This document shows positions 3,285-56,600 of a DNA stretch of 64,000 nucleotides, one piece after another. This stretch comes from Tridacna crocea (lineage: Eukaryota > Mollusca > Bivalvia > Cardiida > Cardiidae), in the NCBI GenBank assembly GCA_943736015.1, contig OX031065.1, positions 16,273,427-16,337,426 on the forward strand. Reading direction: 5' to 3'. Every line of letters begins with the position of its first letter. Position 1 is the first letter of the stretch. Made by a program: the position numbers and the translations under genes. The notes beneath the pieces are model-generated. The model was not told the DNA's origin. It was given only the letters and a program-made list of their open reading frames with translations, and did no database searches.

Positions 3285-3512
3285 ACCTCTACCAAACAAA
3301 TAATCCCATGTGTTTTTACGGCTCTGGTAAAAAAGATTGTGAAAACCTGGTGGGCAAAGAAGAAAATGCTGGGGATACCAGCATTTTCTCCTTTTTCCAC
3401 AGTCTTTTCTACGGTTTCATTGATTATTCCAATTGTTTTAGGACACATCTGATGTCATTATGCATATTTATACATTTTATTTGGACAAGCCTAAATTGTT
3501 TTTTGTCTCTTT
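3285..3512 (+). mobile_element. T1 MITE, diverged
   Basis: TACCAAACAA start, decayed left arm, hairpin with GGGGATACC centre, shortened right arm ending near TTGGACAAGCC. It abuts the next copy. Confidence 0.65.
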
Positions 3513-3715
3513 AACCAAGCCCTGGTTTTTACATCCCAGATTTAGAAGCCTTCAGAAAACCTTGTGGAAAGAGGAGAAAATACTGGTAACCAGCATTTTC
3601 TCCCTTTCCCACAATGTTGTCTACTCTTGCGAAGTCAAGTTTCAATTTTTGAGTCACATTTTATTTTGTTGTCTGCAAGTGCTTTCAATTTGGACTAGTC
3701 TAAAATTTAGAGTTA
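3510..3715 (+). mobile_element. T1 MITE
   Basis: Starts at TTTAACCAAGCCCTGG, has the hairpin centre GGTAACC at about 3587 and a right arm up to TAGTCTAAAATTTAG. The terminal GGTAAAG box is lost. Confidence 0.8.
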
Positions 3716-6787: not shown

Positions 6788-6952
6788 TTAATCCTTCACC
6801 ACACAATGCCGACTTTTTACAACCTTGACAAAAAAGACTTTCAAAAACATTGTGGGAAAGGGAGAAAATGCATTTTCTCCTTTTCAAACCATGTTTTCAA
6901 AAGGCTTCTTTCTCAGGGTTGTTAAAAGTTGGGATTGTGTGGTAAAGAGTTA
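6788..6952. mobile_element. T1 derivative made of two left arms
   Basis: TTAA at both ends, but both halves are the left arm: CCTTCACCACACAATGCC at the start is mirrored by TTGGGATTGTGTGGTAAAG at the end. The whole 165 bp is therefore one long imperfect palindrome around GAAAATGCATTTTC. It lacks the right arm found in normal copies. Confidence 0.8.
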
Positions 6953-7400
6953 ACTCTTTACCAGCGACAAATTTTTTGACAGGACCAAAATGAAAGCATC
7001 TGCAGACAACAAATTAAAGATTGGAAATATGATGATTTCTGACTTCAATAGTGTAGAAAATATTGTGGAAAAAGAAGAAATTCCTGACTTTATGTAATTT
7101 CTACAATTTTGTGATTCTATTCTAAACCATTACCAACTAGTCATAGGTTTTAACAACCCCAATGCAAAAATTACGAAAAGGTTAATTGAAAAAGAGAAAA
7201 TGCTGGTAGCAAGCTATTTCACATTTTGCCACAATGTTTTGTACCCTATTCAACTCTTTGCCAAACAATAAAATTTCGGACAGCTCTAAATTAAAAGCAG
7301 TTGCAGACAAAAAATGAAATTTATCTGAAATGTTTGAGTTTGTTATTGAAAGAGAAGAAACAATTTAGGGATATGGAGAAAATACTGGTTAGTCAGTAAA
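6949..7400. mobile_element. Degenerate T1 cluster
   Basis: Starts at the TTAA shared with the preceding copy, with a right arm (GACAAATTTTTTGACAGG). Decayed cores and arms follow to about 7400, including GAGAAAATGCTGGTAGC and TTTGCCAAACAATAAAAT. Individual copy boundaries cannot be drawn. Confidence 0.5.
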
Positions 7401-8602: not shown

Positions 8603-9150
8603 TTAAAGGTGGCCCTTCAGAATTTGCTACGAAAATTTTATAAGAATACAAAAATATCATCCTTATACTCTCAAAGCCTTACAATTATCATTCATAAACC
8701 TCCAGTAGTCGAAAACCATCCGTGAACAAGAGAAATTAAAGATTTACTACAGCCCAGGTCGACATCGACAGGAAACACATTCTATTTATGCATGTGCAAC
8801 TTGCTCAAATACATACCGGAAATACACAGATGAAGCTTCAAAGATAGCGTCCGAGGAAGATATTATGAAAAATAATTACATGTTTGTAATGTAATGGAAT
8901 TTAAGTGTCATTAGTCCCATTCCAGTCACATAACATTCCCACAATGCTTATTTTCATTTTTGGTGCGAAATCTAAAAATAGCTTAAGAGGCTACGTAGCC
9001 TTTTAAGGGAATACCATAATTTTTTTTTTTTTTTTGTAATTTTACGATTCTTAATTATTGATGATTTGTATTGTTCTTTCATATAAATTTCAGTGATATG
9101 TATTTTTTTTGATTTGGTGTGATGTGAAAATTCTAAATACCCACCTTTAA
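8603..9150 (+). mobile_element. T2 MITE, full length, with empty T1 site
   Basis: TTAA at both ends. The terminal inverted repeat is AGGTGGCCCTTCAGAATTT at the left, with AAATTCTAAATACCCACCT at the right. It carries an internal palindrome GGCTACGTAGCC near 8990. The TTAA at 8901-8904 in GGAATTTAAGTGTCATTAG is unoccupied; a T1 copy fills the same site in the second T2 copy. Confidence 0.85.
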
Positions 9151-9230
9151 ATCAATGAAAAATTTTGTCAAACAGTATGCTTGTATATGACTCTTTCTTA
9201 TACATTTTAATCAAATAATTATCGTGCAAT

Positions 9231-9420
9231 TTAACCCTTTACAAGACAGTCCCGATAATTAGGGACACTGTTTAGGCTTTTGGAAAACATGATGAGAATC
9301 TTGAGGAAAACTGCTTGTTACATGTTATTTTCCTTTTGCCACAGTAATTTCATATCCTTCACAAAGTCCTTCTTTTGAGAAACTTTTGATCAAACACTAT
9401 CTGTAAATGTTATTAATACT
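9231..9420 (+). mobile_element. T1 MITE, degenerate
   Basis: TTAACCCTTTACAAGACA start, decayed left arm and core (GCTTGTTACATG), and a right arm that fades out. Confidence 0.5.
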
Positions 9421-9466
9421 AAATTGTACAGAACTTTTATAGTCTAGTCGATTTGTTTGTTTAAAA

Positions 9467-9685
9467 TTCAACCCTTATCCTACTAAGTAACTGAGATGAA
9501 AAATTCAAACTGATAGTAAAAACCAAAATTTGGCTATTTCAAAGGTTTTTTTTTTTTTCAGGATTAGACATGCTCTTATTGGACAGTGTTGATCAAAGAT
9601 CAGACTACATGTTCTGTGCAATCTGACCTTGATCAACATTGTCTGCAAAAGGTCCTTGAGTTGCACTTAATAGCCTAAGAGTTGA
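9467..9685 (-). mobile_element. T4 MITE
   Basis: Reverse orientation: starts TTCAACCCTTATCCTACTAA and contains the hairpin GTTGATCAAAGATCAGAC / TGACCTTGATCAAC at 9586-9645. It ends near TAGCCTAAGAGTTGA, the counterpart of TTAACCCTTAGGCTGCTAA. Confidence 0.65.
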
Positions 9686-9964
9686 TACTATTCAAATATT
9701 TTCAATGATATCACAGCTGCAACCACTTCACCTATACATTTTCTCCCAGGTTTTTTTTTTTCCAGCACTTCTCACTATGGTGTTCCTAAGTCATTGGCTG
9801 CTTTCCCAGATAACCATCTAGGGCATCATACACAGGTTATTCAGAAGCAAGATAGGAATGAATCCTGTTGCAATGACTATTATAAATTCTCTGAGAGAAA
9901 TTGGCAAGCTGGAATTTTGTACCAGCCACATGCTCACTCAAATGTTGTTACCAGCTGAGCTACA

Positions 9965-10135
9965 GAGAATTTTCATCTTTTCCCACAATGCATTTCAAAA
10001 GCTGTCTTTTTCTCAGAAGACTTCTCCTTTTCTGGTCACAAGCATTTTCTTCTTTTCCAACAATGTTTTCAAAAGCCATCTCTTTCTTCTGGTCACCAGC
10101 ATTTTCTTCTTTTCCCACAATGTTTCCAAAAATTT
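9965..10135. repeat. Tandem T1 half-arm repeats
   Basis: Three successive copies of a T1 half arm. Each reads AGCATTTTCTTCTTTTCC or similar, then ACAATGTTTTCAAAAGC and TTTCTTCTGGTCA. This is local tandem duplication of one hairpin arm. Confidence 0.65.
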
Positions 10136-10145
10136 CCAATATTTT

Positions 10146-10372
10146 GACTCTTTACCAGACGACAAAGTTTTGACCTTGCCCAACTTGAAAGTATTTGCAG
10201 ACAACAGTTTAAATGTGACTCAAATAATGAAATCTAATCCTGATAGGGTAGAAAACACTGTTGGAAAAAGAGAAAATACTGCTTACCATTATTTTCTCCT
10301 TTTCCCACAGTGCTTTCAAAAGGCTTCTTCCTCAAGCGTGTTAAAAGTCATTATTGGGTTGTAAAAGGTTAA
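10146..10372 (-). mobile_element. T1 MITE
   Basis: Right arm first (CTCTTTACCAGACGACAAAG), hairpin centre TGCTTACCA, left arm, terminal TTAA at 10369-10372. A further decayed left-arm fragment follows to about 10515. Confidence 0.8.
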
Positions 10373-10637
10373 AAAAACCTTCTTTTTCTTCAAAGACATC
10401 CTGTCTAGTTACCAACGTTTTTTTTTTTCCTACAATGTTTAAGAAAGCCTACAGTGTTTTCAAAAGCCTTCTCTATTTGGGGTTGTTAAAACTCAGGATT
10501 GTGTGGAATGGGGTAAAAGGAATGACAAGATAAAAAGATAGAAATTCATCAAATAAACCTTATTTATTTCACAATGCAGTTCTGCGCATAAATATATATA
10601 TGCATGTATTTTACAAAAATATTTTGACTGTAATTGC

Positions 10638-10866
10638 TGAACTCTGTACCAACGACAAAATTTTTAGACTGGTCCAAATTGAAAGCACTTGCAGATGACA
10701 ATATAACTGTAACTAGAAATTTAAACATTATTTCCAGCAGGGTAGAAAACATCGTGGGAAAAGGAGAAAATGCTGGTTATCAGCATTTTCTCCTTTTTCC
10801 ACAATGTTTTCAAAAGGCTTCTCCCTCAGGGTCATAAAAACAAGGGATTGTACAGTAAAGGGTTAA
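10638..10866 (-). mobile_element. T1 MITE
   Basis: Right arm first with the usual AGACTGGTCCAAATTG, hairpin centre GGTTATCAGC, left arm, TTAA at 10863-10866. The left TTAA has become TGAA. Confidence 0.87.
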
Positions 10867-10875
10867 GAATTATCA

Positions 10876-11636
10876 TTAAAGGTGGCCCTCCAGATTTTGA
10901 GACGAAAATTTTACAAAACTGCAAAAAAATCATCTTTATACTCCCAAAGCCTTTCAATTTGCGTTCATAAAACCTCGGTAATCAAAAACCATCCGACAAC
11001 ACGAGAAATTAGAGATTAACAACAGCCCAGGGAGACACGTTCTATTTTTAGATCATTAATTCTCTCATTTACATTCAGGAATACACAGACGAAGTTTCAA
11101 ACATAGCGTCCGAAGAAGACATTATGGAAAATAATCATTACATTTTGTTATGTAATGGAATTTAACTCTTTACCAAATGACAAAATTGTAGACTGGTCCA
11201 AATTGAAAGCACTTGCAGACAACCAATTATATATAACTCAAAAATTGAAATTTGTTTCCAGTAGGATAGAAAACATTGTGGAAAAAGGAGAATATGCTGG
11301 TTACCAGCATTTTCTCCTTTTCCCACAATGTTTTCAAAAGGTTTCTATCTCGAGGTCGTTAAAAGTCGGGATTGTGTGGTAAAGAGTTAAGCGTTATTAG
11401 TCATGTGTCAGTCACTTGACACTCCCACAATGCTTCATTGAATTTTGGCGCGAAATATAAAAATACCTTAAGAGCCTACATAGCCTTTTAAGGGAACACC
11501 ATCAAAAATAAAAAAATAAATTCTATTATTCTTAATTATTGATGATTTGTATTATTTTTTCATATAAATTTTAGTGATATATATATATTTTTTTTTAATT
11601 TGGTGAGATGTACAAATTCTAAATACCCAACTTTAA
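10876..11636 (+). mobile_element. T2 MITE containing a nested T1
   Basis: TTAA at both ends and AGGTGGCCCTCCAGATTTT / AAATACCCAACT termini. Without the T1 insert it is about 536 bp, matching the 548-bp copy at 8603. The sequences align throughout, including GTAATGGAATTTAA and GAAATATAAAAATACCTTAAG. Confidence 0.85.
11162..11390 (-). mobile_element. T1 MITE nested in T2
   Basis: TTAA at 11162-11165 and 11387-11390, right arm first, centre GGTTACC. Its flanks join to give the intact sequence seen in the other T2 copy, so the insertion was precise and duplicated only TTAA. Confidence 0.93.
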
Positions 11637-11669
11637 AACAAAGTGAAGTCAGTAAACTCATATTCCTGT

Positions 11670-12800: not shown

Positions 12801-13190
12801 TCACGATATACTATGGTATTTCTTAAATCTGGCCGGCCATCCATTGGAATAAGATAAATCCTGAATCCCCAGCTCACAGCCAAGTTTCTTTGCCTTTTTG
12901 ACAAGCATATTACCACTTACAACAATATTTCTTGAACTTAAGTCTGAGTACCAACGATAAAGGCTCTCATCCAGGTTCATGTGTTTTGGTGTGCTAGTCT
13001 GAACCCTGTAATCTCCCAAACCACTGGTCCATTTCTCTTTGTTTTTTTTAAAAAAAACTTTGAGTGTGGATGGTGGTAGACTCTTGCCCCACTTTTTCGT
13101 TAAATACTTCACAACTTCTTCCCGAAAAAATATTATGGTTTTTGATTTCTCTCTTCTCCAACTAGGTAAACAAGTTTCTGCGTTTTGCAC
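12801..13190 (-). mobile_element. Tigger/pogo-type transposase fragment (CENP-B HTH)
   Basis: A 129-residue open frame. Residues about 74-126 match the CENPB/Tc5-type helix-turn-helix: LDESLYRWYSDL, then the spacing VSGNMLVKKAKKLG, then SNGWPARFKKYHSIS. The preceding ~70 residues are basic and would correspond to the first HTH of the DNA-binding region. No DDE domain follows: a stop comes right after the second HTH, and the downstream - strand shows no homology that I recognise. Either a decayed 5' piece of a Tigger-like DNA transposon, or less likely an exon of a domesticated gene. Confidence 0.7.
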
Positions 13191-13239
13191 CTCCCTTCCA
13201 TATTTACACTACAAAGATGGAAAGAAAAGTTCATTAACC

Positions 13240-19041: not shown

Positions 19042-19170
19042 CCAAATGCACCTATTCCCATTTTGAAGGCCATATACATGATGATGTAATAGATTATATG
19101 TTGCATGTAAATCAAATGAATAATTGTAAGAATTAAGCAGTCTAGTAAAAAGTGTATCCTATAACTCTTT

Positions 19171-19586
19171 AGCATATAGTACCGACTTTTAAAGGTGGGT
19201 ATTTAGAATTTTCCCATCGCACCAAATTAAACAATAAACATGTCACTGAAATTTATATGAAAAAACAATACAAATCATCAGTAATAAAGAATAATAAGAT
19301 TACAAAAAAACATTTTTTGGAGGTATTCCCTTAAAAGGCTACGTAGCCTCTTAAGCTATGTTTAGATTTCCCGCCAAAAGCACCTTTAACACCAGTAAGA
19401 AAGGAAGCCTTTGAAAGCATTGTGAGAAAAGGAGAAAATGCTGGAAACCAGCATTTTCTCCTTTTCCCACAATGTTTTCTACCCTGTCCAACTTAATTTC
19501 AATTTTTGATTCACATTGTATTTTGTTGTCTGCAAATGCTTTCCATTTGGACTAGTCCAAAGTTTTGTTGTTTGGTAAAGGGTTAA
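19171..19586 (+). mobile_element. T1 MITE interrupted by a T2 copy
   Basis: The left arm (AACTCTTTAGCATATAGT, CCGACTTTTAA) stops at 19192 and resumes at 19386 with TTAACACCAGTAAG. Core centre GGAAACC, right arm, TTAA at 19583-19586. The insert is a short T2, so nesting occurs in both directions in this window. Confidence 0.82.
19189..19389 (-). mobile_element. T2 MITE, internally deleted, nested in T1
   Basis: TTAA at both ends, AGGTGGGTATTTAGAATTT at the left, and GGCTACGTAGCC inside. Compared with the 548-bp copy it keeps the right-hand third and a few terminal bases of the left end. Confidence 0.8.
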
Positions 19587-26000: not shown

Positions 26001-29000
26001 TTTCTCTGAGAGGGTCCTGATAGAAAAAGGAGAAAATGATGGTCAGCAGCATTTTCTACTTTTTCCACAATGATTTTAAAGCCATCTCCAGCTGGGCTGT
26101 GAAAACTTAAGGTTGTGTGGTAGAAGATTTTAGATATGTATAGATTTAATGGAGATTTATGCAGTTTATTTGTTAAAACTTTCTATCTTTCAATCCTAAA
26201 TTTTGTCTTGTGGCAAAGAGTTGATAAAAGATGGACCTTTGAAAATATTTCAGGATCACGGATGATGACAAGAAATCAAGGAAAGGACAGCTTATCATTC
26301 AGTCTATTGACCTGTCAAAGGTAATAGTAATTTTGCTGTTTTGTTGTATACATGTACATTTTTAATGCTTTACCTGGTTTTCTTCCTAACACTTGAAAAC
26401 TATGGGAAATGGAGAAAAATGATACTTACTAAGACTCCTTTTTGGCAAAGTCCCCAAAAGTCATGTCCCTGATGGTTTCATATGTGGTTAGTCCTTCTCG
26501 GACAGAAATTTCAGACTTGTTGGAACTGAAGGCATATGCAGGTAAAAAATTGATAAGGCTCAGGCAATTAGATTTATCATTGAAAGAGTTGAAATATTTT
26601 GGGAAAAGGAAAGAATGTTGTTCCTGGCACTTGTTCCTTCTCCCTAAGTTCTAAAGAAAAGTTCTCTTCAGCAGGGTTGCTTTACCCTTTACCAAACAAC
26701 AAAGTTTTACACAAGTCCAAATTGAAAGCACTTGCAGATGACAAAATTAGAATACCTCAAAAATTGAAATTTGTTTTAAGAAGGGTAGAAAACATAAGAA
26801 AAAGAAAAAATACTGGTTACCAGCTTTTTCTGCTCTTCCCACAATGCTTTCATAAGATTTCTGTCTCAGGGTCATAAAAATGAAGGGTTGTTTGGTAAAG
26901 ACTGAAACAGGTGATTGTTGAATAGAGGGTTGAAAATGTATAGATTGGAGATTTTTTTTTTTTAACTTTTGAAGAGTATTATAATAATGATAATTGTAAG
27001 TTTATCAATAAAACCTACATGTATGTTGTGGGTACTCACTGTGGACACTCACCAGAAATGTCTTGATAACTGGCTAGTAGCTTCCCATGAATGCTATGTG
27101 AAGGACTGGTGAAAGATTCTGTGGAAAGCATAGATAGGTGTACTGACCCCTGCAGTACAACTGAAATAATGTTTGAAATGGTGTTGAGCTTTCAACAAAT
27201 GATAAAAATGTAGACTGGTCCAACTTTACCTCTTTCCCAAATAAGCCCTGGTTTTTACATGTCTGGAGTACAAGCCATTAGAAAACACTGTTGGAAAAGG
27301 AGAAATTGCTCGTAACGAGCAATTTCTCCTTTCCTACAGTGTTTTCTACCCTTTTGGAGAACTTTCTGCCATTTTTATCTAATTTAGAATTGTTGTCTGC
27401 AAACTCTGTAAATTTGGAAGAGTCTTAAATTTATCGTTTTGTAAAGGGTTAAAGCATTTGCAGAGGACAAGTTAAATGTGGCTCAATTGGTGGAACTTGC
27501 CTTTGATAAGGTAGAAAACATTATGGGAAATGGTTACTAGCATCTTCTCCTTTTCCCATAATGGTTTTGGAAAGCTTCCTCCTCAGGTTGGTTAAAATTT
27601 ATGACTTTGTTGGAAAGGGTTAAACACCAAACAAACAAAACACTAGAGTAATGAATCAATACTTGTTCATTCTGTAGCTCTCAGCTATGATAGAGGATAG
27701 AAAAGAAGATGGTGGGCCAGATACAAAGAAAAGGAAAAGAGAAGAGTAAGTTCATGAAATCTTTTGCTAAAATCCTTTTTTTCTTCAACCCTAGACCTAC
27801 CACATCTTAACCCACCACCACACAATCCCTACTTTTGACGCCTCTGAGAAAGAAACCTTTAGAAAACATTGTGGGAAAAGGAGAAAATGCTGGTAACCAG
27901 CATTTTCTCCTTTTCCCACAATGTTTTCTACCCTTCACAAAACAAATCTCAAATTTTCAGTCACTTTTATTTTTTCGTCAGACGTCTGCAAATGCTTTCA
28001 ATTTGGACAAGCCTAAAATATTGTTGATTGGTAATGAGTTAATTGTTGGCAATAACAAAAGTAATCTTTGTCATCTTTTATGCATGAAGTGTACATAACC
28101 AAGACTGCAAATCAAGCATCAGAGAGTGTAAACTGGATCAGTCTAAATGTATGAAATCACGGCTTTACCACACAATCCAGACTTGACGACCCAGAGAAAG
28201 AAGCCTTTTGAAAAAGGAGAAAATGCTGGTATCCAGCATCCTTTTCCCACAATGTTTTCTACCCTTCACAAAACAGATTTCAAATTTTCAGTCACTTTTA
28301 TTTTGTTGTCTATGCAAATGCTTTTGATTTGGAAAAACCTAAAATTTTGTCTTTTGGGTATGAATTAAAGACATTTTGATAAGAAAAAATTACAGTGGTA
28401 AACAGAAAATAAGTGTCATTTTTCACTTTTCTCCCAACATCTTGATAGCCAATATACATACCTTCACTGCTTTTTTCGAGTTTGATTCACAGGTACCAAG
28501 CCTTTATGTTTAGCAGTGAGAAATGAATGTGTACTGTTGAAATGACTATTATTAATCCTTGGAGACAATTTTGCAGAGTTTGAAGTAAAACCAGGGACCC
28601 CAAGGTTTGGAGCCTTCTACATACACAAAATTTACTGAAAACTGTAAATGTAGTTGACAAATATCTGGAGTGATGAAGATCAAACTTTTGGCATGGTTCA
28701 GGTGTAGTTCCTCTGTGTTTTCAGCACTTATAGGTCGGGGTTCATGTGCAATTATCTAAATTATTGTCTTTTATTGATCTAGTCCAGAGGAAACCGATTC
28801 CACCCAGCCTTCAAACAAACAGTCCAAACTCTCAAATATACCAGATGGCAGTTTAAATTTGGAGGTAATATTTAATAGGCTTGATGCATTTTTGTTAAAC
28901 TTAACTTCATATATACCATAATTGTATCTCACTTGTTCATGTACCTCTTGGCTTTTATAAGCGCAGGAGTAGGGCTTTGAAGTGTAATACCTACTATTGA

Positions 29001-32000: not shown

Positions 32001-35000
32001 AAAGTGTAAATTTTTGTTGTCTGGTAGATAACCAATAAAAAGTGTCATAAAGGGCGATAATTTTGATAACTTGCTATCTTTTCTTTCTGTACTTTCTTTC
32101 AGAATCTCTTGGAGATTGTTCCTTTTTAAACACATGTTTCCATATGGATACCTGTAAAGTAAGTGGGCTTAAATAATATGAAAATCTTTCAATTGAAGGT
32201 CCAATAGCAGCCAACAGTAAACAACGTGGGTGTAAAAATGTCCTAGAGTTTGAATGATACTATTTAGAAATTTTGATATATACGAGATGACAATCTGGTA
32301 TTGTATGGTCAGTCGAAGTCTTAGTTGCTAGCAGAAAAATGAGATTAAATCCAGGTGACAAGTAAACCTAATTTTAACTTTTTTTTTGTCTGCCAGCCAC
32401 TAACTATTGGACTGACTATATAACAACAGTTTGTCATCTTCGCAATTCCCATACTTCTCATTGGTATACTTTAAATGTAAATGCATTTTAAACTGGCTCG
32501 GTTTATTTTTGGTCACTATTGGGCTTTTAAGTTTTTACTAAATGACAAAATTTTTGATTGTTCCAAATTAATAACTTATTTGCAGATGTCAAGTAAGATA
32601 TTGCTCAAGTGAAAGCATATGTCATGGAAAAGATCAAGAACATTATGGACAAATGGGAAAATGCTGTTCCAGCATTCTCTACTTTGCCCACGATGTTTCT
32701 ATAGCTCTTTATCATTATGGTTGAAATGAGGGAATGAGCAGGAAAGAGTTATTGACCTTTTGATTGTAAAATGAGAGAAATAGAACTATTCAGTCACTTT
32801 ACCCAACAATCCTGGTTTCTACAACTCTGAGATACAAGCCTTTTGAAAACATTGCGGGTAAAGGAGAAATGCTTGTTTGCCAGCATTTTCTCTTTTTCCC
32901 ACAGTGTTTTCTACCATTCTGGAAACAAATACCACCTTTTTGAGCTACAATTATTTTGTTTTCTGCTAGTGCTTCCGATTTGGACCGGTCCAAAATTATG
33001 TTGTTTGGTAAAGAGTTAAATTCCTTTTGCAAGAGCATGGCACATAATTCATCACTGGATTGTTTCTGTTTGCAGTATGTGCATTACCAAATAGACTATC
33101 CAGAGGACGCACCTAAAACACAGGTAGCCAAAAAAGATGCCATGTCTACAGTCCCAAAATCTAGTGACTCTTCAGAGCAAGTGAACATGTTTCCTCCACA
33201 AGTATGTAGAACTAAAAACTTTCATGCCAAGCTAGGTTATACAGTCAGTAGGGAACATGACTTGAGAACAGGGAGTTGGCGAATGACATCTCCAGCCTGG
33301 CTAATATCTCTCCAAGGATTGATGATGATCATTTGTTCCTCTCTTACCACTGATTATTGTTTTGGCAATTGCTATATGGGAATTAAAGCAGGGATGTTTT
33401 TCTAAAGGCTATTTTGCCAATTCCGCTAGGGGAGAATATTGTGCAAATTTCTACGAACAGAAAATCCAGTGAAGGTGCAATTGGCACCACAATATAATTG
33501 AATTGATGTTAAAAATGACATTAACCCATTACCACACAATCCCTACTTTTGACGCCCCTGAGAAAGAATCCTTTTGAAAACACTGTAGGAAAAGGAGAAA
33601 ATGCTGGTAACCAGGATTTTCTCCTTTTCCCACAGTGTTTTCTACCCCTCCCAGAACAAATTTCAATTTTTCAGTCACCTGTATTTTGTCGTCTGCAAAT
33701 GCTTTCAATTTGGACCAGTCTAAAATTTTGTTGTGTGGTAAAGAGTTAAGGTAGTTCCCTCGTCATGGAAAACAGTCATTACGACAAATAATATTATCCT
33801 ACATAATTTGCTATTATTAAAGATGAGTACTATTGTACTACTTTAACTGAGCTACTTTTTCCTTTTTTTCTGTCTTTTAATCATTATTTATAAATCTAAA
33901 ACCCCTATGGTTACTCTCATTATATAGGGAGATAACAATTACCTCCCTTCTTACGAAACTAAAGTATCAACAAATAATTTCAAGATAGACATCAACAGAA
34001 ATGTAGGTTTCCAGCATTTATTCTCTGACATGGTTTTCAAAGACTGCTTTCTTAAAGAATGGAACTGTTTGGCACATTCTGATTTTTGTTTACCTACGAC
34101 GATGTTTTTTCATGTTTTTGCTAGTGGATCCAGTGTGATATCAGATTTATAGATATGACTGTACTGGGTAAATGTGCTGTGATAATGGCTGATCCTCCCT
34201 GGGATATCCATATGGAGCTTCCGTACGGGACCATGAGTGATGATGAGATGAGACAGATGCCTGTCCCGCTTCTACAAGATGAGGGCTTTATTTTCCTGTG
34301 GGTCACAGGAAGGTGCGTATACCTCATGTTCTACCTTGACATTGTTAATTGTATGGGAAGGAGGCAGGGTACTTGGAAACTTGTTCAAAGCTTTGGAATA
34401 TTGCCTTGAGCTGAAGACAAGGGGACAACTTAACCCAGCACAGCCATGAAAAATGTCTTTAATGAACTGCTAAGAAATTTCTTATGATCTGATTGGTTAA
34501 CATGCTGGGAACATTATATATCATTTACCCTGGCAAAAGCCACATTTAAAGCCACTTTCCCTTTTGAGTGTCCAGGAAACAACACTACACTTGCAACACA
34601 ACATCCAAAATGGTGGCATCAATCGATCACCAGACTGCAAATTAATGCACCAAACTGCATATTTTAGTGACATCACTTCCCAATGATGTCAGTTTTCATT
34701 GAATATGGGCATTCAGAAGTGAATTCATGAGATTGTAAAACAGGAAAATTTTGCTTAACAAACTTTGAAAGGGAAAAACTTTGCAGTATAATAAATTTGT
34801 TGTAATGGCAGGTGGCAGGGCACTTGGAAACTTTTTCATGGCTGTGGTTAATCATGTCGCCCCGAGCTGAAGGCAAGGTGATGACATGATTCACCACAGC
34901 TGTGAACAAGTTTCCAAGTCCTCTGCCTCCTGATTGTACAACTAATAATGTTCCCTAGAGCTTGCCAGTGGACAGCAACATACATCTAGAACATATTATG

Positions 35001-38000
35001 TAGTTCTATTTGGAGAATTACTTTTCACTTTAATACCAATAATAACAATTTTAGCTCTGACAGCTGCTTTCAAAGAAAGCAACAAAATATTTGCTTAATT
35101 CTTTGGCAGATAGTGAGTAAATGTCTTGATTTTCCACAAACCTTAACTTTTATTAAACTGTTGTTAGAAGACCTTCTTTCAATAAATTCATTTTATTAAT
35201 CTTCTTTGATATTTCAGAGCTATGGAACTGGGACGAGAATGTTTAGATCTGTGGGGGTATGTATATCAGTATGTGCAGCTTAAATCTTTACCTGACAATC
35301 CGAATTTTTACAATCAGAGGAAAAGGGCTGTTGAAAACATTATGGAAAAAAGAGAGAATACCGAGAACAAGCATTTCCTTCTTTCCCACATAAGTTTCTA
35401 CCTGTTCAGTGACCAATGATTTGGTTGACATTTAATTTGTCATGTGCTAATGAAATGTGACAAAATTTTACCACTACGAAGGTAAAGACAATTTTAACAA
35501 GTAGTAAAATCAAACATTACCCTCTCTTCAGTTATGACAGAAAAATTCCTGCTTGTAAATAATGATCAGCTGTAATGCCTGAACACTTTACAGATGAATG
35601 CCATTAACTCATTACCAAATGACAATATTTTAGGCTTGTCCAAATGGAAAGCATTTGCAGACGACAAAATAAAAGTGACTGAAAATTTTAAATTTGTTTT
35701 GTGAAGGGTAGAAAACATTGTGGGAAAAGGAGAAAATGCTGGTAACCAGCATTTTCTCCTTTTCCCACAGTGTTTTTTATTTAAAGGCTTCTTTTTCAGG
35801 AGTGTCAAAAGTAGGGATTGTGTGGTAATGGGTTAACCCTTTACCACACAATCCCAACTTTTAACAACCATGATAAAGAAAGCTTTTGAAAACATTGTGA
35901 GAAAAGGAAAAAATCCTGGTAACCAGCATTTTCTCCTTTCCCTTCAATGTTTTCTACCATGCTTGAAACAAATTTCAATTTTTGACTTGCGTTTATTTTG
36001 TTTTCTTCTGCAAGTGCTTTCAATTTGGACCAGTCTTAAATTGTGTTGTTTGGTAAAGAGTTAAGATTTAGATGCATCTATAGGTTTTTCAATAAGTCTC
36101 AGATATCACAGTTCCTTTGAGCCAATCCCTTGATGAGAAGGATCAACTTTTGCAGCTACCCATCTACCAATGCAAGTACTGGTCAGGTTTCTAAGAACAG
36201 GGCTTGAACATTTTTTCAAGACCAAACTCACCCTGTTAGACAAGAGAATTCAAATATTGGCCTATCCGTCATTAGAGAAGAAGCAGGCAACACTTTTTCA
36301 TAAGTTATAGTGATTTCAATTAGACGATAAGAAGAATAAGGAAAACTACCATGCAAATTTCTGACTTGCTTTACTGATTAGTGTCTCATGTTCCAGAATT
36401 AATTAAATATCTTACAACTAAAGAATAAACTCTTTTATTTTGATGCAGGTATAAAAGAATAGATGAGATAATCTGGGTAAAGACTAACCAGTTACAGAGA
36501 ATAATCAGGACTGGTCGGACAGGCCATTGGCTGAATCACGGCAAAGAGCACTGTTTGGTAAGTCTGGGCTTTAACCCTCTACTCCATAGATACTCATTTC
36601 TATGCATTGCTTGTAGGAGCCTTTGGAAAACATTATCATTATGGCAAAAGGTGAAATTGCTCGTGATGAGCAATTTCACCTTTTGCCACAATGTTTTCTA
36701 CACTATCAAACAGTGTCATACACACATAAGAAACGGCTTCATCCTTGCTGTTATTTAGGGTCAATTAGATATACCATAGAAATGCTTTATAGGGTAAAGG
36801 GTTAAATGTGGACTTCCTTGAAATTTTATTGTGCCTTATATAGGTGAATGAGTTTGAAATAGATAGTTTAGAATAAAATATAATAACAAATTTTTTAACC
36901 CTTTACCAAACAATGCTGAGCTTTGACGGTTCCAAGGATAAAGGGCTTTTCAAAATATTGTGGGAAAAGGAAAAGTGCTTGTAATCTGTATTTTTCTGGT
37001 TTTCTAAAATGCTTTTTACCCTGTAAGAGACAAATACCATCATTTAGGTCAGATATTTGTTTGTGGTGTGTGGATGTCATTAATATGGACAAATCTAAAA
37101 TTTTCTTGTCTGGTAAGGGGTTATCAAAATTTTAGACGGATCCCAACTGAAAGCACTTGCAGACGACCAAATAAACTTTACTAAAAAATCGAAATTTGTT
37201 TAGTGAAGGGTAGAAAACATTGTTGGAAAAGGAAAAAATGCTGGTTACCAGCATTTTATCCTTTTCTCACAATGTTTTCAAAAGGCCTCTATCTTAGGGT
37301 CGTAAAATCCAGGGATTGTTTGGTAAAGGGTTAAACAATATTTTACAGGTTGGGGTTAAGGGGAACCCTAAAGGTGTCAATAAGGGATTAGACTGTGATG
37401 TCATTGTGGCAGAAGTCAGAGCTACCAGTCATAAACCAGATGAGATATATGGAATAATAGAGCGACTGTCACCGGGCACTAGAAAAGTGGAGCTGTTTGG
37501 ACGTCCTCATAATGTTCAGCCTAATTGGTCAGTGTTCCTTTGATATTTTCTTTATGTTGTCAAGTTTAACCCTTTACCACACAATCCCAACTTTTAAGTG
37601 AAAGAAGCCTTTTGAAAACATTGTGGGAAAAGGAGAAAATGCTGGTAACCAGCATTTTCTCCTTTTCCCACGATGTTTTCTTCCCTTCCTAAAACAAATT
37701 TCAATTCTGTAGTCACATATATTTTGTTGTCTGCACATGCTATCAATTTGGACCAATCTAAAATTTTGTCGTTTGGTAAAGAGTTATCCTTGCATCAAAC
37801 AAGAACATTTTAGATTGGTCTAAATTCAAAGTATTTGAAGAAAAACTTTTAGTGCAACTCTAATGAATGGATTTATAACAGAAGGGGTTGACAACATTGC
37901 AGGAAAAGAAAAAAATGCTGGTTATCAGCATTATCTTCGTTTCTCACAATGTTGTTGAGAATCGTCTTTCATAGGGTTGTAAAACTTAGTATTGTGTGGT

Positions 38001-44600: not shown

Positions 44601-47600
44601 GTTACACATGAAACAGTTAAACAGTAACACATTTTTCCTCGGTTTGACAAGATTCTTGATATTTAGCCCATTGCAGAGATGTATGTTGAGAGTTGAGAGT
44701 AACGGACGACAACTCTTCTCGGAGATTGAAACGTGCAGTCTGGTGATTGATCGACGCCGCCATTTTGGATGTTGTGTTGCAAGCGTATTGATGTTTACGG
44801 GGCACTCAAAAGGGAAACTGGCTTTACGTGGTTTTTGCCAGGGTACATGATATATATGTTCCCGGCATGTTAACCAATCAGATCACGAGAAATTTCTTTG
44901 CGGTATAATACATGTAAGAAACTCTCTTTTGTGACTGAGCGCATTCAATCATAACTTACTCGAGGCATTTCAGACCGGCTGTGCCACAAATACACAACGA
45001 ACATCCATCGTGAAATCTGTCACCTTCTCTCATGCTCAAACCCCGGAATAGGCAGCCGTCTGAAATAATGTAGAGTTTACGAGAGAGGTCTCAATTTCCA
45101 TTCGAATCGTTTGGAAAACTTTATAAAGACTTGCAAACTCCATTTGGAGTCTGAGAATTTCAAAACACGAAAAAAAAAAATGAAAACACTTATACGAAAT
45201 TATTTGAAGATTACACTTTATCGTAGACGGTATGACAGATTCCAGTCAGTTATTAAAGAACAAGTCATCAAATTAAGATCTAGCCTATTATCTTTGTTGT
45301 AGCCTACGTTCTCTCTGTAAGTATGGCGACGCCAGCAATCTATACTTGCATGCAAAATAAAGTTTGCACGTTATCTCGGACGAATCCAGTCCAACCTTAT
45401 TTACCATGGTGGTAGAATGCGAGTGTTTGAAAGCAGAGGCGAGCAATGTTCTAATATCTGTGTTGTTGAAAAAAACGGTCTGATAGGGGTAGCGACGTGA
45501 TTGCGTGGGGTGGGAGAAAGGGCGCCCGCATACGGCTCGCATTACAAGACAATATCTGAATGCAAATCGTGATAAGGTCTTGCCTGGCCCGCGGTTTCCA
45601 CAGACCTAAATATCATTGCGCAAATGTGGGACCTTCTTAGTGGTAGAAAAAAAGCCTGTCTGTCTGTCTGTCTCAGAATAAGATCTATGCATCATGTAAA
45701 TAAATAATTTGCAGATGTTCGAGCATGCCCTGCAGGTTGAATGGAATAGCAAACGCCCGCACGCCGTACCTACGTCGATTCCATGGGACGCCGCAATATC
45801 CAATATCAATTCTATTTATTCATTTGTTTTCAGTACCAAAAAGTAGGACAAAAGCCAGCACATTCAGCTATGCCAAGAAACATGGTAGCTAGATATTTGA
45901 TAAATCTTTCGTGAAACTTTATCATCTAGATAATATTTCCAGGAAAGTTTGTTTTATTGCGATAATTATCACAATAGCTACTCATATCTCATGGCAAAAA
46001 TACGCGTCCATAGTTTCAAAATGTCAAAAGCCAGCACATTCAGCTATGCCAAGAAACATGGTAGCTAGATATTTGATAAATCTTTCGTGAAACTTTATCA
46101 TCTAGATAATATTTCCAGGAAAGTTTGATTTATTGCGATAATTATCACAATAGCTACTCATATCTCATGGCAAAAATACGTGTCCATAGTTTCAAAATGT
46201 CAAAAGCTAGCACATTCAGCTATGCCAAGAAACATGGTAGCTAGATATTTGATAAATCTTTCGTGAAACTTTTTCATTTAGATAATATTTCCAGGAAAGT
46301 TTGTTTTATTGCGATAATTATCACAATGCTACTCGTATCTCATGGCAAAAATATGCCTCCATAGTTTCGACCAAGATGTAGGAAATAATGTAAAATTGGT
46401 ACCAAACTTACATAGCCTACTTTTATGCATGGATCCCTTGGAAAATAGCCTAAAATTCTGTGCACAGTTAGTTTCTTTTGCGTGTAGGTGTATATTTTTA
46501 GACCAAAACTTTAATGGTAATTTCATCCATGTAGAGTATGTGTACATGTATATTGTATGATGAGACATATATTCGAACCAAAACTATTGAGAAATATCTT
46601 ACTACACACTGGTATGTCACAAAACTCCCAGGACTCATCTTCATTACCGGAAGCTGACGTATAGCACCATGGAGACGACCTAATTTCTCTGGGGTTACGA
46701 CAGAAGTTTTTGTCCAGATTGTCGTATGGATATCGACCAGTAGTGACATAATGAAGGTGACGATTCCACGGCACACACTCCCGGCCGGAGTGCGAGATGT
46801 TTGCATTTCCTCGATATGATAACCCTTTCACGGTCTTGCATAATGTAACAAGTCCCTAAAATAAAGAAAATATACTCAGTGTCTAAAGAAAATATACTCA
46901 GTGTCTAAATATAGCCATTACCTTTTAACCGTCATAAGGTTAGACTAGTTATGATATACAGGACCTGACATGAGTTGGTTTTTGAGATAAAAATTTATCA
47001 AACGAGTCTACAAAAATGTTATATTGATTAATTAAGCGAGCCTTTGGCGAGCTGAATAACATTTTTCCTGGACAAGTTTAATAATTTTTTTACTTCAAAA
47101 ACCAGCGAGTGTCAGATTCTTTTTATCACATTACTGATTAACAAGAATTATAGTCCAAAATGTGTTAAACTAGAGGCATACATGTATCATGTGTAGTGAA
47201 ATTTACATGAAGCCTGTGCACTTACTTTGACAGGTACATTTCGAATGAAAATAGTTCCGAAGAAAATTGCATAATATTGATTTTTGTTTTGAGTCTAACA
47301 GTGATTGAATTAACAACTTTATCATGACAAGAACTGTGACCGCTAATTTCCTCCAGAAACCTAGGTCAGGAATGTTTTAGAAATGAAGCGTATAATTAGA
47401 GTGTTGACCAAATACAGCACTTTTTTCTTACCTCACACGTTTGAGACAAGAAAATTCGTAATGGCTGTATCAAATTGAAATTAAGGAGAGTTATGTGATA
47501 AAGTAATCTAGCATCACGCTTTTGAGAGAGACAGAGAGCTTTCCTATGAAATACTGTACGAGTATTTATAATCGCTCGTGATAGTGGTTTCGTCACTACA

Positions 47601-50600
47601 ATTGCTTATTATTATATCATACTGAAGTAGAAATGAGACTTGCTCTGTGAAGGGTTCATAAGTCATCCGCAGAAAGTATCGAACCATGTCAGACTGCCTA
47701 CGGTCTTCACCGTCGATTGCTCATTTGGGCCCCATCACCTGAAGACTGATAGTTAGGTTACTTAGGTAACGGAGGGAGGGGGTCAGAACAAATTACGGGA
47801 CAATTATCAGTCGTAAGCTCTGCCCGGTTCTCTATCGTACTGGTATATAGAGCCATCACATGGGACCTCGTTTTTAACGTCTTTCTCGAAGGATTATATT
47901 GGGTATTTTGAATGGCCATCCGTTGGGTGCAAGCTTGCATCCTATGGCCAAGTTCTTATTGTTTACAAGTCCTATGTTCTACCACCTTAGCTATTTGGGT
48001 CTCTCTAGTCGTAGTTGAAATATCGACGCATACACCATTACTCCGAGACAGCTAGGTTATAAATTTGATCTATTATTAGGTGAAAAAAGTAGGTATACTT
48101 ACCTGTGTAGAAACACTGGCAATGCATAACCGAATAAAAAGACGAAAACACCATTATTAAAGCAAATATTTCCATAGTTGAACCTTTATCAAAACCTGAA
48201 CTTTTGTATTGCTTCTGTGGTCGGGTCTCGTATCAGACTTTCATACTGAAAGTACACCTGCCTTTGATAGCACAAAATTATCGCCCTGAAGAATGAATGA
48301 TTAAACGTTTCGTAATATTTCCTATCTTATAGTCTAGATATTTTGAAGACTATACAGTCCTTTTTCATAATAATAATAAGGAAAATATTTTATAGGATTA
48401 ATTAACATTTTGAAAAGGATGGATTTTTTTTTTATATAGATTATTGGAAACATACACTGTCTGAAAGAGAACTGACGTGTTTGAAAAAGCGACGCTGTAA
48501 ACATGGTGAAAGAATGTAGTTTCGTGATGATTGCTTTGAAATCGGTTAATTTCTATGGTCGCAACCATGAATTATCAAAGCTTATAATCCATCATTATTT
48601 TCTGATAAATTACCAAAAAAATAACCTTTTCAAAATTTCAGTAAACCATACGAGAACATGGTTTTCTCACTGTTATCCAATAGCGGAAAATGGCTCATTT
48701 GTGGACTCATTCAGCTGCACCAAGGTTTTTTGACCAGCAAAGATCAAAATTAGACTGCATAGAACGTGTAAACCATTTTAGCCTAGTATTAATATAAAAA
48801 TCAACGATAAAATAATCGTGATGATAAAAAAGAAATATGAGTTTCAGTGGAATGTAGCTTAATTACCTCATTACCAAACGGCAATATTTAAGACTGGTTC
48901 AAACTGAAAGCATTTGCAGACGACAAAATAAAAGCGACTGAACATTTGAAATTTGTTTTGTGAAGGGTAGAAAACATTGTGGGAAAAGGAGAAAATGCTG
49001 GTAACCAGCATTTTCTCCTTTTCCCACAATGTTTTCTAAAGGCTTCTTTCTCAGGCTCGTCAATAGTAGGGATTGTGTGGTAATGAGTTAAGCCGTTACA
49101 AGAAGCTGAGCTGGTAGACTTGAATTTGGCACTGAAAGGTTATGGATTTGTCATAAGAGAATCCTGGTCCGATCTCTTAAGGCGGTGCTTGTTATCTAGG
49201 AATGTCGACGGGCAAGGCACTGCGCAAAGTTCCGGCCTTGATGGTCATTCCTTGGTCTTAGGAACAAAGCCCGTAAGTAGGCGTTGGCCGGCCGGTGTAA
49301 TGCAGAAAAATGACCCCCATTACAAAATGACCCCCGGGTCATTTCTCGACGTAGAGGAATGACCCATGGGTCATTTTTCGACGTAGAAAAATGACCCGGG
49401 TCATTATTCTACGTCGAAAAATGACCCGGGGTCATTTCTCGACGTAGAGAAATGACCCATGGGTCATTATTCTACGTCGAGAAATGACCCGGGGGTCATT
49501 TTGTAATGGGGGTCATTTTTCTGCCTTACACCGGCAACATTTAAAGACAAATGCTTTTGGTCATGTGCATGTTGAGATGGGGTGTGTCTCTTTTTTTTAA
49601 TTCGGACAAAACTTACCAACCGTTCTTTTTGGTTGATGTCTACCATGTCTTTATTTACAAAAAAACTCTTATAGAAAGCAAACAAATGAATGGTATATGA
49701 ATACTTCTTTAATATAAAAGATCTTTACATTTGTCTATCTACACTGTAATTTTACAAAAAAAAAAAAAACGTTTTACTATCTATACACAGGTTTAACATT
49801 TAGCAATGATTTCCTGATGTAAGTCTAACAAATAGAAATGTTTGATATAATAATAATAACAATAATAATAATAATAAATGGTAAAAGCCTTACTACAACC
49901 AAGTAATCTATTTGTGAGGTTGTTTTGAAATGTCAAATCAATGTCAGTGTTAAGCCATTACCACACAATCCCTACTTTTGACGCCCCTGAGAAAGAAGCC
50001 TTTTGAAAACACTGAGGGAAAAGGAGAAAATGCTGGTAACCAGCATTTTCTCCTTTTCCCACAGTGTTTTCTACCCTTCCCAAAACAAATTTCTATTTTT
50101 CAGTCACCTTTATTTTGTTGTCTGCAAATGCTTTCAATTTGGACCAGTCTAAAATTTTGTCGTCTGGTAATGAGTTAATCTTTATGGCCTGCAACACGTG
50201 AAATATTTGCGTAAAGTGTCGCCTCAGATCATCCTGCGCAGTTCGTGCAGGCTAATCCGAGACTATCCTTTCCGACTGCATTATATTTGGTCTCACACTC
50301 GACTTGCGAAAAACAGAAAATTACAGAAAAACGAAAAATGTCGTTTCGGATTTGTCAGCGCGGAGTGTGTAGGCTGACCCGAGACGACACTTTACGCAAC
50401 TGTCTGCGTCTTGCAGGTCAATATTATCATGTATGTGTAATATGGAGTGTAAATGTTTCGAGGAAAAAAAAAACGTACAAGAAATGTAAAATAATATGTT
50501 AAATGTAAAACAATAAGTAGAATAAAAAAATTAAACCTGTCATTTTCAAAAGCTTTTTTTACAACCACGTTATTCCTCTAGACAAACCTTGTTATCAAAA

Positions 50601-53600: not shown

Positions 53601-56600
53601 CATGTACATAACATGTTGACTTTTTTGGGAAAAATACACATTCTTTTTCTAAGACAGACAGACAGGCATACATACAGAGACAGACAGACAGACAGACAGA
53701 TTTTTATGCAACAAGAGGACCATGATGGTCCTATATCGCTCACCTGAGTATATTTGTAACTTATATGGTTTATCAAGGGCAGGCTATTAATTCTTTTCAA
53801 GTAAGGCATACCCTGGGGTTTGTCACAAAAAGATGTTTACAGATTTTCTTCTTTCTCTTTGGCCAGCGGAGCTAAAAACTGCTGCTTATCATCAGTTTTT
53901 CTCTTCATAGTGTCTTGTTCCCTTTTTGACTTGTAGTTTAACCCATTACCAGACAACAAAATTTTAGACTGGTCCAAAATGAAACAAATTGTAGACAACA
54001 TTTTAAAGTGTATTTAAAATGAAAACTAAGTGATCTATATGGTAGAAAAAGATCGTGAGAAAGGAGAAATTGCTTGTTACAAACAATTTCTCCTTTTTAG
54101 ATGGAATTGATTTTAAAAGATTTCCTTCTATGATTCTATGTGAAATAGTGTGCACCAGGGCACAGAGCCCAAATATGACCCCAGGGGGATAATTTTAATT
54201 ATTTTTATAAAGGGTCACTAGATGATGCTACATGCAAAATATAAGTGCTCCAGCCCTTATGGTTTGACACAAGTATATTTTAAAAGATTTCCTACTTTGT
54301 TTCTATGTAAAATAGGGTGCGCCCGGGCAGAGCCCAAATATGACCTCAGAGGGATAATTCTAGCAATTTTGGTAGAAGATTATCTGATTATGCTACGTAT
54401 CAAATATGAATGCTCGAGCCATTACTGTTTGTCAGAGAAAGACTTATTAAAGCTTTCCTTCTTTGTTTCTATGTAAAATAGGGTGTGCGCGGGCAAAGAC
54501 AAAATATGACCCAAGGGGAATAATTTTAACAATTTTGGTAAGGGGTCACCAAATGATGCTTCAAACAAAATATGAATGCTCTAGGCATTATGGTTTGTCA
54601 CAAGAAGATTTTTTAAAGATTTTAAAATATGGTACACCCGGGCAGAGCCCAAATACATGTATGACCGCAGAGGGATAATTTTAAAAATTTTGGTAGAGGA
54701 TAATCAGATAATGCTACATACCAAATATGAATGCTCTAGCCGTTATGATTTGTCAGAAGAAGACTTTTTATAGGGGTCACCCAATGATGCTTCAAACAAA
54801 ATATGAAGGCCCTCCACCTTATGGTTTGTCACAAGAAGATTTTTAAAGATTTTAAAATAGGTTAAAATAGGGTGCACCCGGGCAGAGCCCAAATACGACC
54901 GCAGAAGGATAATTTTAACAATTTTGGTAGAAGATTATCAAATAATGTTACATACTAAATAGGAATGTTCTAGCCATTATGGTTTGTCATCAGAAGAAGT
55001 TTTAAAGATTTCCTTCTTTGTTTCTATGTAAAATACAATGCGCCCGGGCAAAGCCCAAATATGACCCCATGGGAATGATTTTAACAATTTTGGTAAGGGG
55101 TCACCCAATGAACAAAATATGAATGCTCCCGGCCCTATGTTTTGTCACAAGAAGATTTTTAAAGATCTTAAAATAGAGTGCGCCCGGGCAGAGCCCAAAT
55201 ATGACCGCAGAGGAATAATTCTAACAATTTTGGTAGAAGATAATCAGATAATGCTACATACCAAATATGAACTCTCTAGCCATTATGGTTTGTCAGAAGA
55301 AGATTTTATAAAGATTTCCTTCTTTGTTTCTATGTAAAATAGTGTGCGCCCGGGCAAAGCCCAAATATGACCCCAGGGGAATAGTTTTAACAATTTTGGT
55401 AAAGGGTAACCCAATGATGCTTCATACAAAATATGAATGTTCCCTGCCTTGTGGTTTGTCACAAGAAGATTTTTACAGATTTTTTTTTTCCATTTTCAGC
55501 CATTTTGTTGCCATGGCAACCAGAGGTTTTGATGGAATTAAATTCTTTTGACACTTTTTGTAGAGCTTCACTCAAGGAACATTCCTGCCAAGTTTTATCA
55601 AGATTGGCCATCTGGTTTCGGAGGAGAAGATTTTTAAAGAAATTGTTAACGGACGGACGGACGGACAGATGGACGGACGGACGGACGACGGACGATGACC
55701 GATCACAATAGCTCCCCCTGAGCACGTTGTGCTCAGGTGAGCTAAAATACACACACACATACATGTAAGTACGGAATAATAGAAACTTACGGTCAGTAAA
55801 CAACCTAAACAGTTGCTCCCGACTTCGGAAAGCGCTCACAGTGACGAAGGAATCGGGTGTTAGCCAGCCATTGCGTATATTTCGCCCCACTCTCTCCACA
55901 TGTACTTTTGTCATTCTGTAGCGTTCCTGGCCGAATTTGTTCAGGTCTTGAGGCCAAGCCAGTTTTACCTTACCTGTATTATGAAAATTCACCGAGGTTA
56001 AAGATTTGTTTGTATCGTGTTGAAAACGTTGTTGCAGTGATATCATGGACGCCAATGGGCTTATATATGCTTTCCAGGAGTTTCTTCTACCAATATGTAA
56101 ATTGCTAAATGGTGAGTACTAGGGCGCAATGAATAAACCACTCGGGCTATCGCTTCATGGATTATTTATTGTGCCTCATTACTCACAGCCGTGGTTTATC
56201 GAACGATAAACCACGATAGAAAGAAGATTATTTCTGAAATAAGGGGTGACAGAGGTCTGAATGGGAGCAACCATATTGTTCAATCTGCTTCCAGCCATTT
56301 CGCAACTACGTCATTTCGTACCTAAGCTATTTCGTACCCACCTTTACTTTTTATTTTGGTCATTTTGTACTCACTTTGATAATTTCGTAATCACTTTAAT
56401 CATTTCATACCCTGTTTTAAAATCATTAATTAATGTTTTTATATCAATTCGGTAATTTAGAATCTGGTTTTAATACTATTTTCTTGTGTTGATTGTCGAA
56501 TTACAATTGTTTTGTACATAGCTCGACTACTGCTTTTGTACACAGCTCCAATTGAAATTATGTTAATTTTCGCCGAAGTCTGGTTATGACTGTGTCTTAT

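Follow-up and report, generated by a model that had tools for sequence, protein, structure and literature searches.

The window analysed here, a 64-kb stretch of AT-rich eukaryotic DNA (35.5 % GC), contains two related copies of a repeat family designated T2, which lie on the same strand and are separated by about 2 kb. The copy T2a (8603-9150, plus strand) is uninterrupted; its element proper (8607-9146) is flanked by TTAA at 8603-8606 and 9147-9150, and an intact TTAA at 8901-8904, recognized in the sequence and by BLAST, lies in its interior. The copy T2b (10876-11636, plus strand), flanked by TTAA at 10876-10879 and 11633-11636, is divided by an element of a second family, T1, which is 221 bp long (CTCTTTACC...GGTAAAGAG, 11166-11386, plus strand) and was delineated from the sequence, BLAST and a profile search. 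TTAA tetranucleotides abut this T1 on its left (11162-11165) and on its right (11387-11390), as indicated by the sequence, BLAST and the T1 end counts given below. A central palindrome occupies 11269-11335 of the same element, with 33-bp arms that are 94 % complementary and separated by one base.

Elsewhere in the window, coding pieces were recognized by Pfam searches. The DNA-binding domain of a Tc5-type transposase was found in an ORF at 12801-13208 (minus strand; E 3e-10), an MT-A70 domain at 34125-34409 (plus strand) and a Kringle domain at 46523-46855 (minus strand); the latter two only point to an animal-like genome. Tandem arrays were composed of 156-bp units at 745-1850, 176-bp units at 45849-46368, units of ~31, 63 and 93 bp at 49324-49502 and units of ~166 bp at 54109-55482. 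Rfam at gathering thresholds gave no matches.

Global alignment identified T2a and T2b as paralogues with 442 of 523 ungapped columns identical, in agreement with the original prediction that two T2 copies about 2 kb apart align along their length. Identity ranged from 0.835 to 0.887 across seven gap settings and was ~81 % over 534 columns of a MAFFT alignment from which T1 had been removed. Relative to T2a, T2b displayed one additional 225-bp block, aligned to a single gap and corresponding to the 221-bp T1 plus one TTAA (221 + 4). This single gap was kept in three of the seven gap settings, while the other four fragmented it within T1, the largest piece then beginning after 8904 in three settings and after 8908 in one. 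BLAST of T2a against the window paired 8603-8904 with 10876-11165 and 8901-9155 with 11387-11641; the two pieces overlapped on T2a by exactly the TTAA at 8901-8904, and left T1 (11166-11386) between the two TTAA of T2b. Twelve smaller indels also separated the paralogues, the closest to the junction lying 18 columns upstream and 47 columns downstream.

The coordinates originally assigned to the empty TTAA and to both TTAA around T1 were right, and the insertion indeed amounted to exactly one T1 and one TTAA, as shown by the 225-bp gap and the BLAST overlap and in agreement with the ends of T1 throughout the window. A full T1 had been placed at 11162-11390; its location stands and its length has to be corrected, since these 229 bp count both TTAA and the element proper measures 221 bp. 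The pairwise alignment proposed with the original prediction displayed neither additional indels at the junction nor a boundary other than TTAA, with the reservation that some gap settings scattered letters of T1.

T1 copies were gathered over the 64-kb window by an iterated profile search starting with T1, in which matches were non-overlapping and the weakest were short fragments. Altogether 90 matches were obtained, covering 15,388 bp or 24 % of the window, and 47 of them were near full length. Exact TTAA abutted 26 of 53 left ends (control 19 of 2650) and 33 of 54 right ends (control 23 of 2700), the controls being positions shifted 10-59 bases outward. Among the 36 copies with both ends, ten displayed exact TTAA on both sides; allowing one mismatch over the eight letters raised this number to 24, and allowing two to 29. 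In the consensus, TTAA is followed by CTCTTTACCA at the left end and preceded by GGTAAAGGG at the right end; the left end reads CTCTTTACC by majority, and the terminal repeats are CTCTTTACC and GGTAAAGGG. These ends, taken from the whole family, give the same boundaries as the T2 pair, so that the latter are independently corroborated. Clustering did not separate T1 into subfamilies, 40 of the 47 copies falling into one cluster when eight clusters were formed.

The density of T1 was uneven: the first 40 kb contained the starts of 78 matches, against 12 for the last 24 kb. TTAA sites, in contrast, were distributed far more evenly. Thirteen pairs of neighbouring T1 matches overlapped or lay within 12 bases of each other, some of them being fragments. 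At 6842-7089 and 35608-36060, T1 copies adjoined across one shared TTAA, head-to-tail or tail-to-tail. At 3286-3712, two copies in direct orientation met with both facing ends missing, perhaps through a deletion between neighbouring T1 ends.

A paralogue spanning the junction was found in the window for one of the 36 two-ended T1 copies when T1 was masked, compared with 19 of 1000 random 221-bp blocks. That the window contains an empty paralogue of an occupied site is therefore unremarkable in itself, and the strength of the T2a/T2b pair is its exact fit to the ends of T1 and to TTAA. This pair was the only case of an empty paralogue among the 36 copies in the masked window. The search for empty paralogues of the 36 copies yielded many rows spanning a junction; apart from this site and a T1 inserted in T1 at 27230-27448, the rows inspected were attributed to self matches or to flanks that themselves consist of T1.

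Two further nests were recognized in the window. At 19165-19582 (minus strand), reciprocally to the arrangement in T2b, a T1 is split at a TTAA in its interior by a short T2 with an internal deletion; the T1 parts on either side, once joined, align to the consensus of T1. This third T2, T2c (19193-19385, minus strand, ~193 bp), displayed exact TTAA on both sides (19189-19192 and 19386-19389) and had entered a TTAA within the GTTAAAAGTCGG stretch of its host; a TTAA in this stretch was present in 16 of the 47 near-full T1 copies, the host included. The second nest (27188-27619, plus strand; flanks TTGA and TTAA) consists of an outer T1 split by an inner T1 (27230-27448, minus strand) in opposite orientation, whose flanks are TTAC (27226-27229) and TTAA (27449-27452), one side being thus one letter off. 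Once rejoined, the outer T1 fitted the consensus except for 12 bp deleted elsewhere. With T1 in T2, T2 in T1 and T1 in T1, the three nests together are hard to explain other than by insertion. The mutual nesting of T1 and T2 shows TTAA to have been used by both families, whose periods of mobility overlapped, and each served as a landing site for the other. Dating the two by divergence was indecisive: the T1 at 11166 diverged 10.0 % from the T1 consensus, and T2a and T2b displayed a K2P distance of 0.22 in the MAFFT alignment.

As judged from its ends, T2 is a second TTAA element, most likely of Kolobok type. Its ends (AGGTGG) differ from those of T1, and three copies displayed TTAA on both sides and terminal letters AG. 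In the accessible part of PMC6004289, Kolobok elements are described as having a TTAA target and RR terminal letters, and the Xenopus T2-MITE as displaying the motif AGGRR after TTAA. The family studied here shares with the latter the TTAA target, the AG terminal letters and the AGG start, but T2a and T2b continue with TG (AGGTG) where this motif has RR; the common name T2 is a coincidence. As a further difference, no Kolobok transposase was seen among the 20 scanned of 63 ORFs of at least 90 aa.

T1 is, with good confidence, a short non-autonomous DNA transposon (MITE) that was moved into a TTAA of T2 by a cut-and-paste transposase specific for TTAA, which most likely belonged to the piggyBac superfamily. 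Its MITE character is indicated by its length of 221 bp, the terminal inverted repeats, the non-coding sequence and the 47 near-full copies among 90 matches; duplication of a TTAA target site, as in piggyBac, is indicated by the end counts against their controls and by the paired empty site. The enzyme would be a transposase of piggyBac type whose gene lies elsewhere in the genome, and T1 would have entered the TTAA of T2b equivalent to 8901-8904 by cut-and-paste, duplicating these four bp. According to the portion of PMC10813416 consulted, CCCTT is the most conserved end motif of piggyBac elements and TTAA their usual duplication, a few elements having variant duplications. By this yardstick, the consensus right end of T1 (CCCTTTACC) carries the terminal CCC/CCCTT motif; counting against the assignment, the left end begins with CTC by majority and not with the CCC of most piggyBac elements. 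Also counting against this reading of T1, no transposase of piggyBac was detected in the 20 ORFs scanned, only ten of the 36 two-ended copies kept exact TTAA on both sides, four of the seven gap settings broke the 225-bp gap, and one TTAA copy was TTAC in the nest of T1 in T1. Compared with known piggyBac MITEs and short non-autonomous piggyBac elements, T1 is alike in its TTAA duplication, short terminal inverted repeat, high copy number and lack of visible coding capacity. It differs from them in its left end and in its long central palindrome, a feature not found described for them in the open-access literature.

It is unlikely that T1 was moved by another superfamily targeting TTAA, such as Kolobok or Sola3. 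Sola3 is a TTAA-targeting superfamily. A TTAA target alone is insufficient to assign a superfamily, Kolobok using it as well (PMC6004289, in the part available), and a Pfam search covering 20 of 63 stop-to-stop ORFs (at least 90 aa) in the 64-kb window detected no transposase domain of either piggyBac or Kolobok, which leaves room for such an origin. The ends of T1 nevertheless argue for piggyBac: they are CT and CC, where the same part of PMC6004289 gives RR for Kolobok, and the CCCTT of the right end is the commonest piggyBac end in the consulted portion of PMC10813416. Since no transposase was found, we infer the superfamilies of both elements from these features, the ends of T1 fitting the piggyBac type and those of T2 the Kolobok type.

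The original prediction held that the pair proves that T1 inserts at TTAA. This stands for the target and for the ends, while it was a little strong as to the direction of change, which the pair alone does not fix since piggyBac-type elements can excise seamlessly. If the ancestor of the T2 copies, or T2a itself, once carried T1, a precise excision restoring one TTAA might have removed it from T2a. As indicated by the title of a reference in PMC11707139, piggyBac excision can be seamless, and it would then leave identical letters at 8901-8904; T2c, which lacks the region corresponding to the T1 site in T2b, cannot decide between the two. Such an excision appears rather improbable, as it needs an extra event, as just one of the two T2 copies informative at this site carries T1, and as the 90 matches, widespread outside T2, characterize an independently moving family. 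Direct insertion is simpler given this wide spread, although a site never occupied and one precisely vacated would look alike in the pair, and the change was presumably a gain in T2b and not a loss in T2a. It is most improbable that T2a and T2b arose together by local segmental duplication and differ by a 225-bp indel of other origin. Their proximity (~2 kb) and common strand would suit a duplication, but their likeness ended at the ends of T2, each copy was flanked by its own pair of TTAA, and the additional block was exactly a T1 with the ends found in other T1 copies. The letters of the window themselves show the ends of T1, the duplication of four bp (TTAA) and a T2 paralogue that matches and is uninterrupted. 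The argument of the original prediction, in which an occupied site is set against its empty paralogue, is the standard one in related-empty-site (RESites) analysis of MITEs; the present case differs in that a single 64-kb window contains both partners and two further nests.

The central palindrome gave a side result. RNA folding of 11162-11390 yielded -75.6 kcal/mol (z = -7.08), and none of 200 shuffles folded as well. Over the 47 near-full copies, the arms were more conserved (0.90) than the remainder of T1 (0.79). At the 34 paired positions of these copies, 30 cells were altered on both sides, and 20 of them were still complementary, representing 14 types in 13 copies. Sliding the arms by one to three positions gave four to nine matched two-sided changes, and 1000 column shuffles, which ignore the shared ancestry of the copies, gave a mean of 7.5 and a maximum of 16. 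Counting against correction between the arms, another 226 cells were altered on one side only and had been left uncorrected, and five of the 20 complementary cells were of one type. The T1 at 27230-27448 displayed four and six changes in its arms and only three arm mismatches, a number equal to that of the consensus. It is possible, if doubtful, that the likeness of the T1 arms is not simply inherited but upheld, either by selection acting on the hairpin or by arm-to-arm copying through hairpin-based correction or template switching; the available part of PMC8794818 describes how hairpins are maintained by template switching. Arm-to-arm correction is a lead only, because the count of matched changes ignores the shared ancestry of the copies. 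If it is true, each T1 copy would record symmetric corrections, and the family, with its dozens of copies in 64 kb, would offer a natural record of how palindromes are corrected in a genome of animal type.

Searches beyond the window covered viral contigs, phage records and genome contigs. Exact-pattern scans of viral contigs, with chosen patterns of 21-30 bp only, gave no matches for either T1 or T2, and T1 matched no phage records. The sole match of T1 in genome contigs, in an uncultured Ruminococcus contig, was rejected as chance, the profile spanning ~27 bp only and the second palindrome arm not being seen. The family T1 was not found in searches of the open-access literature.

The biology encountered here is ordinary, TTAA-targeting MITEs and nested insertions being well known, and it is displayed unusually clearly at this locus. 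The ends and the target of an extremely dense repeat family could be fixed from one window, and both are needed for its annotation and for a search for its transposase.
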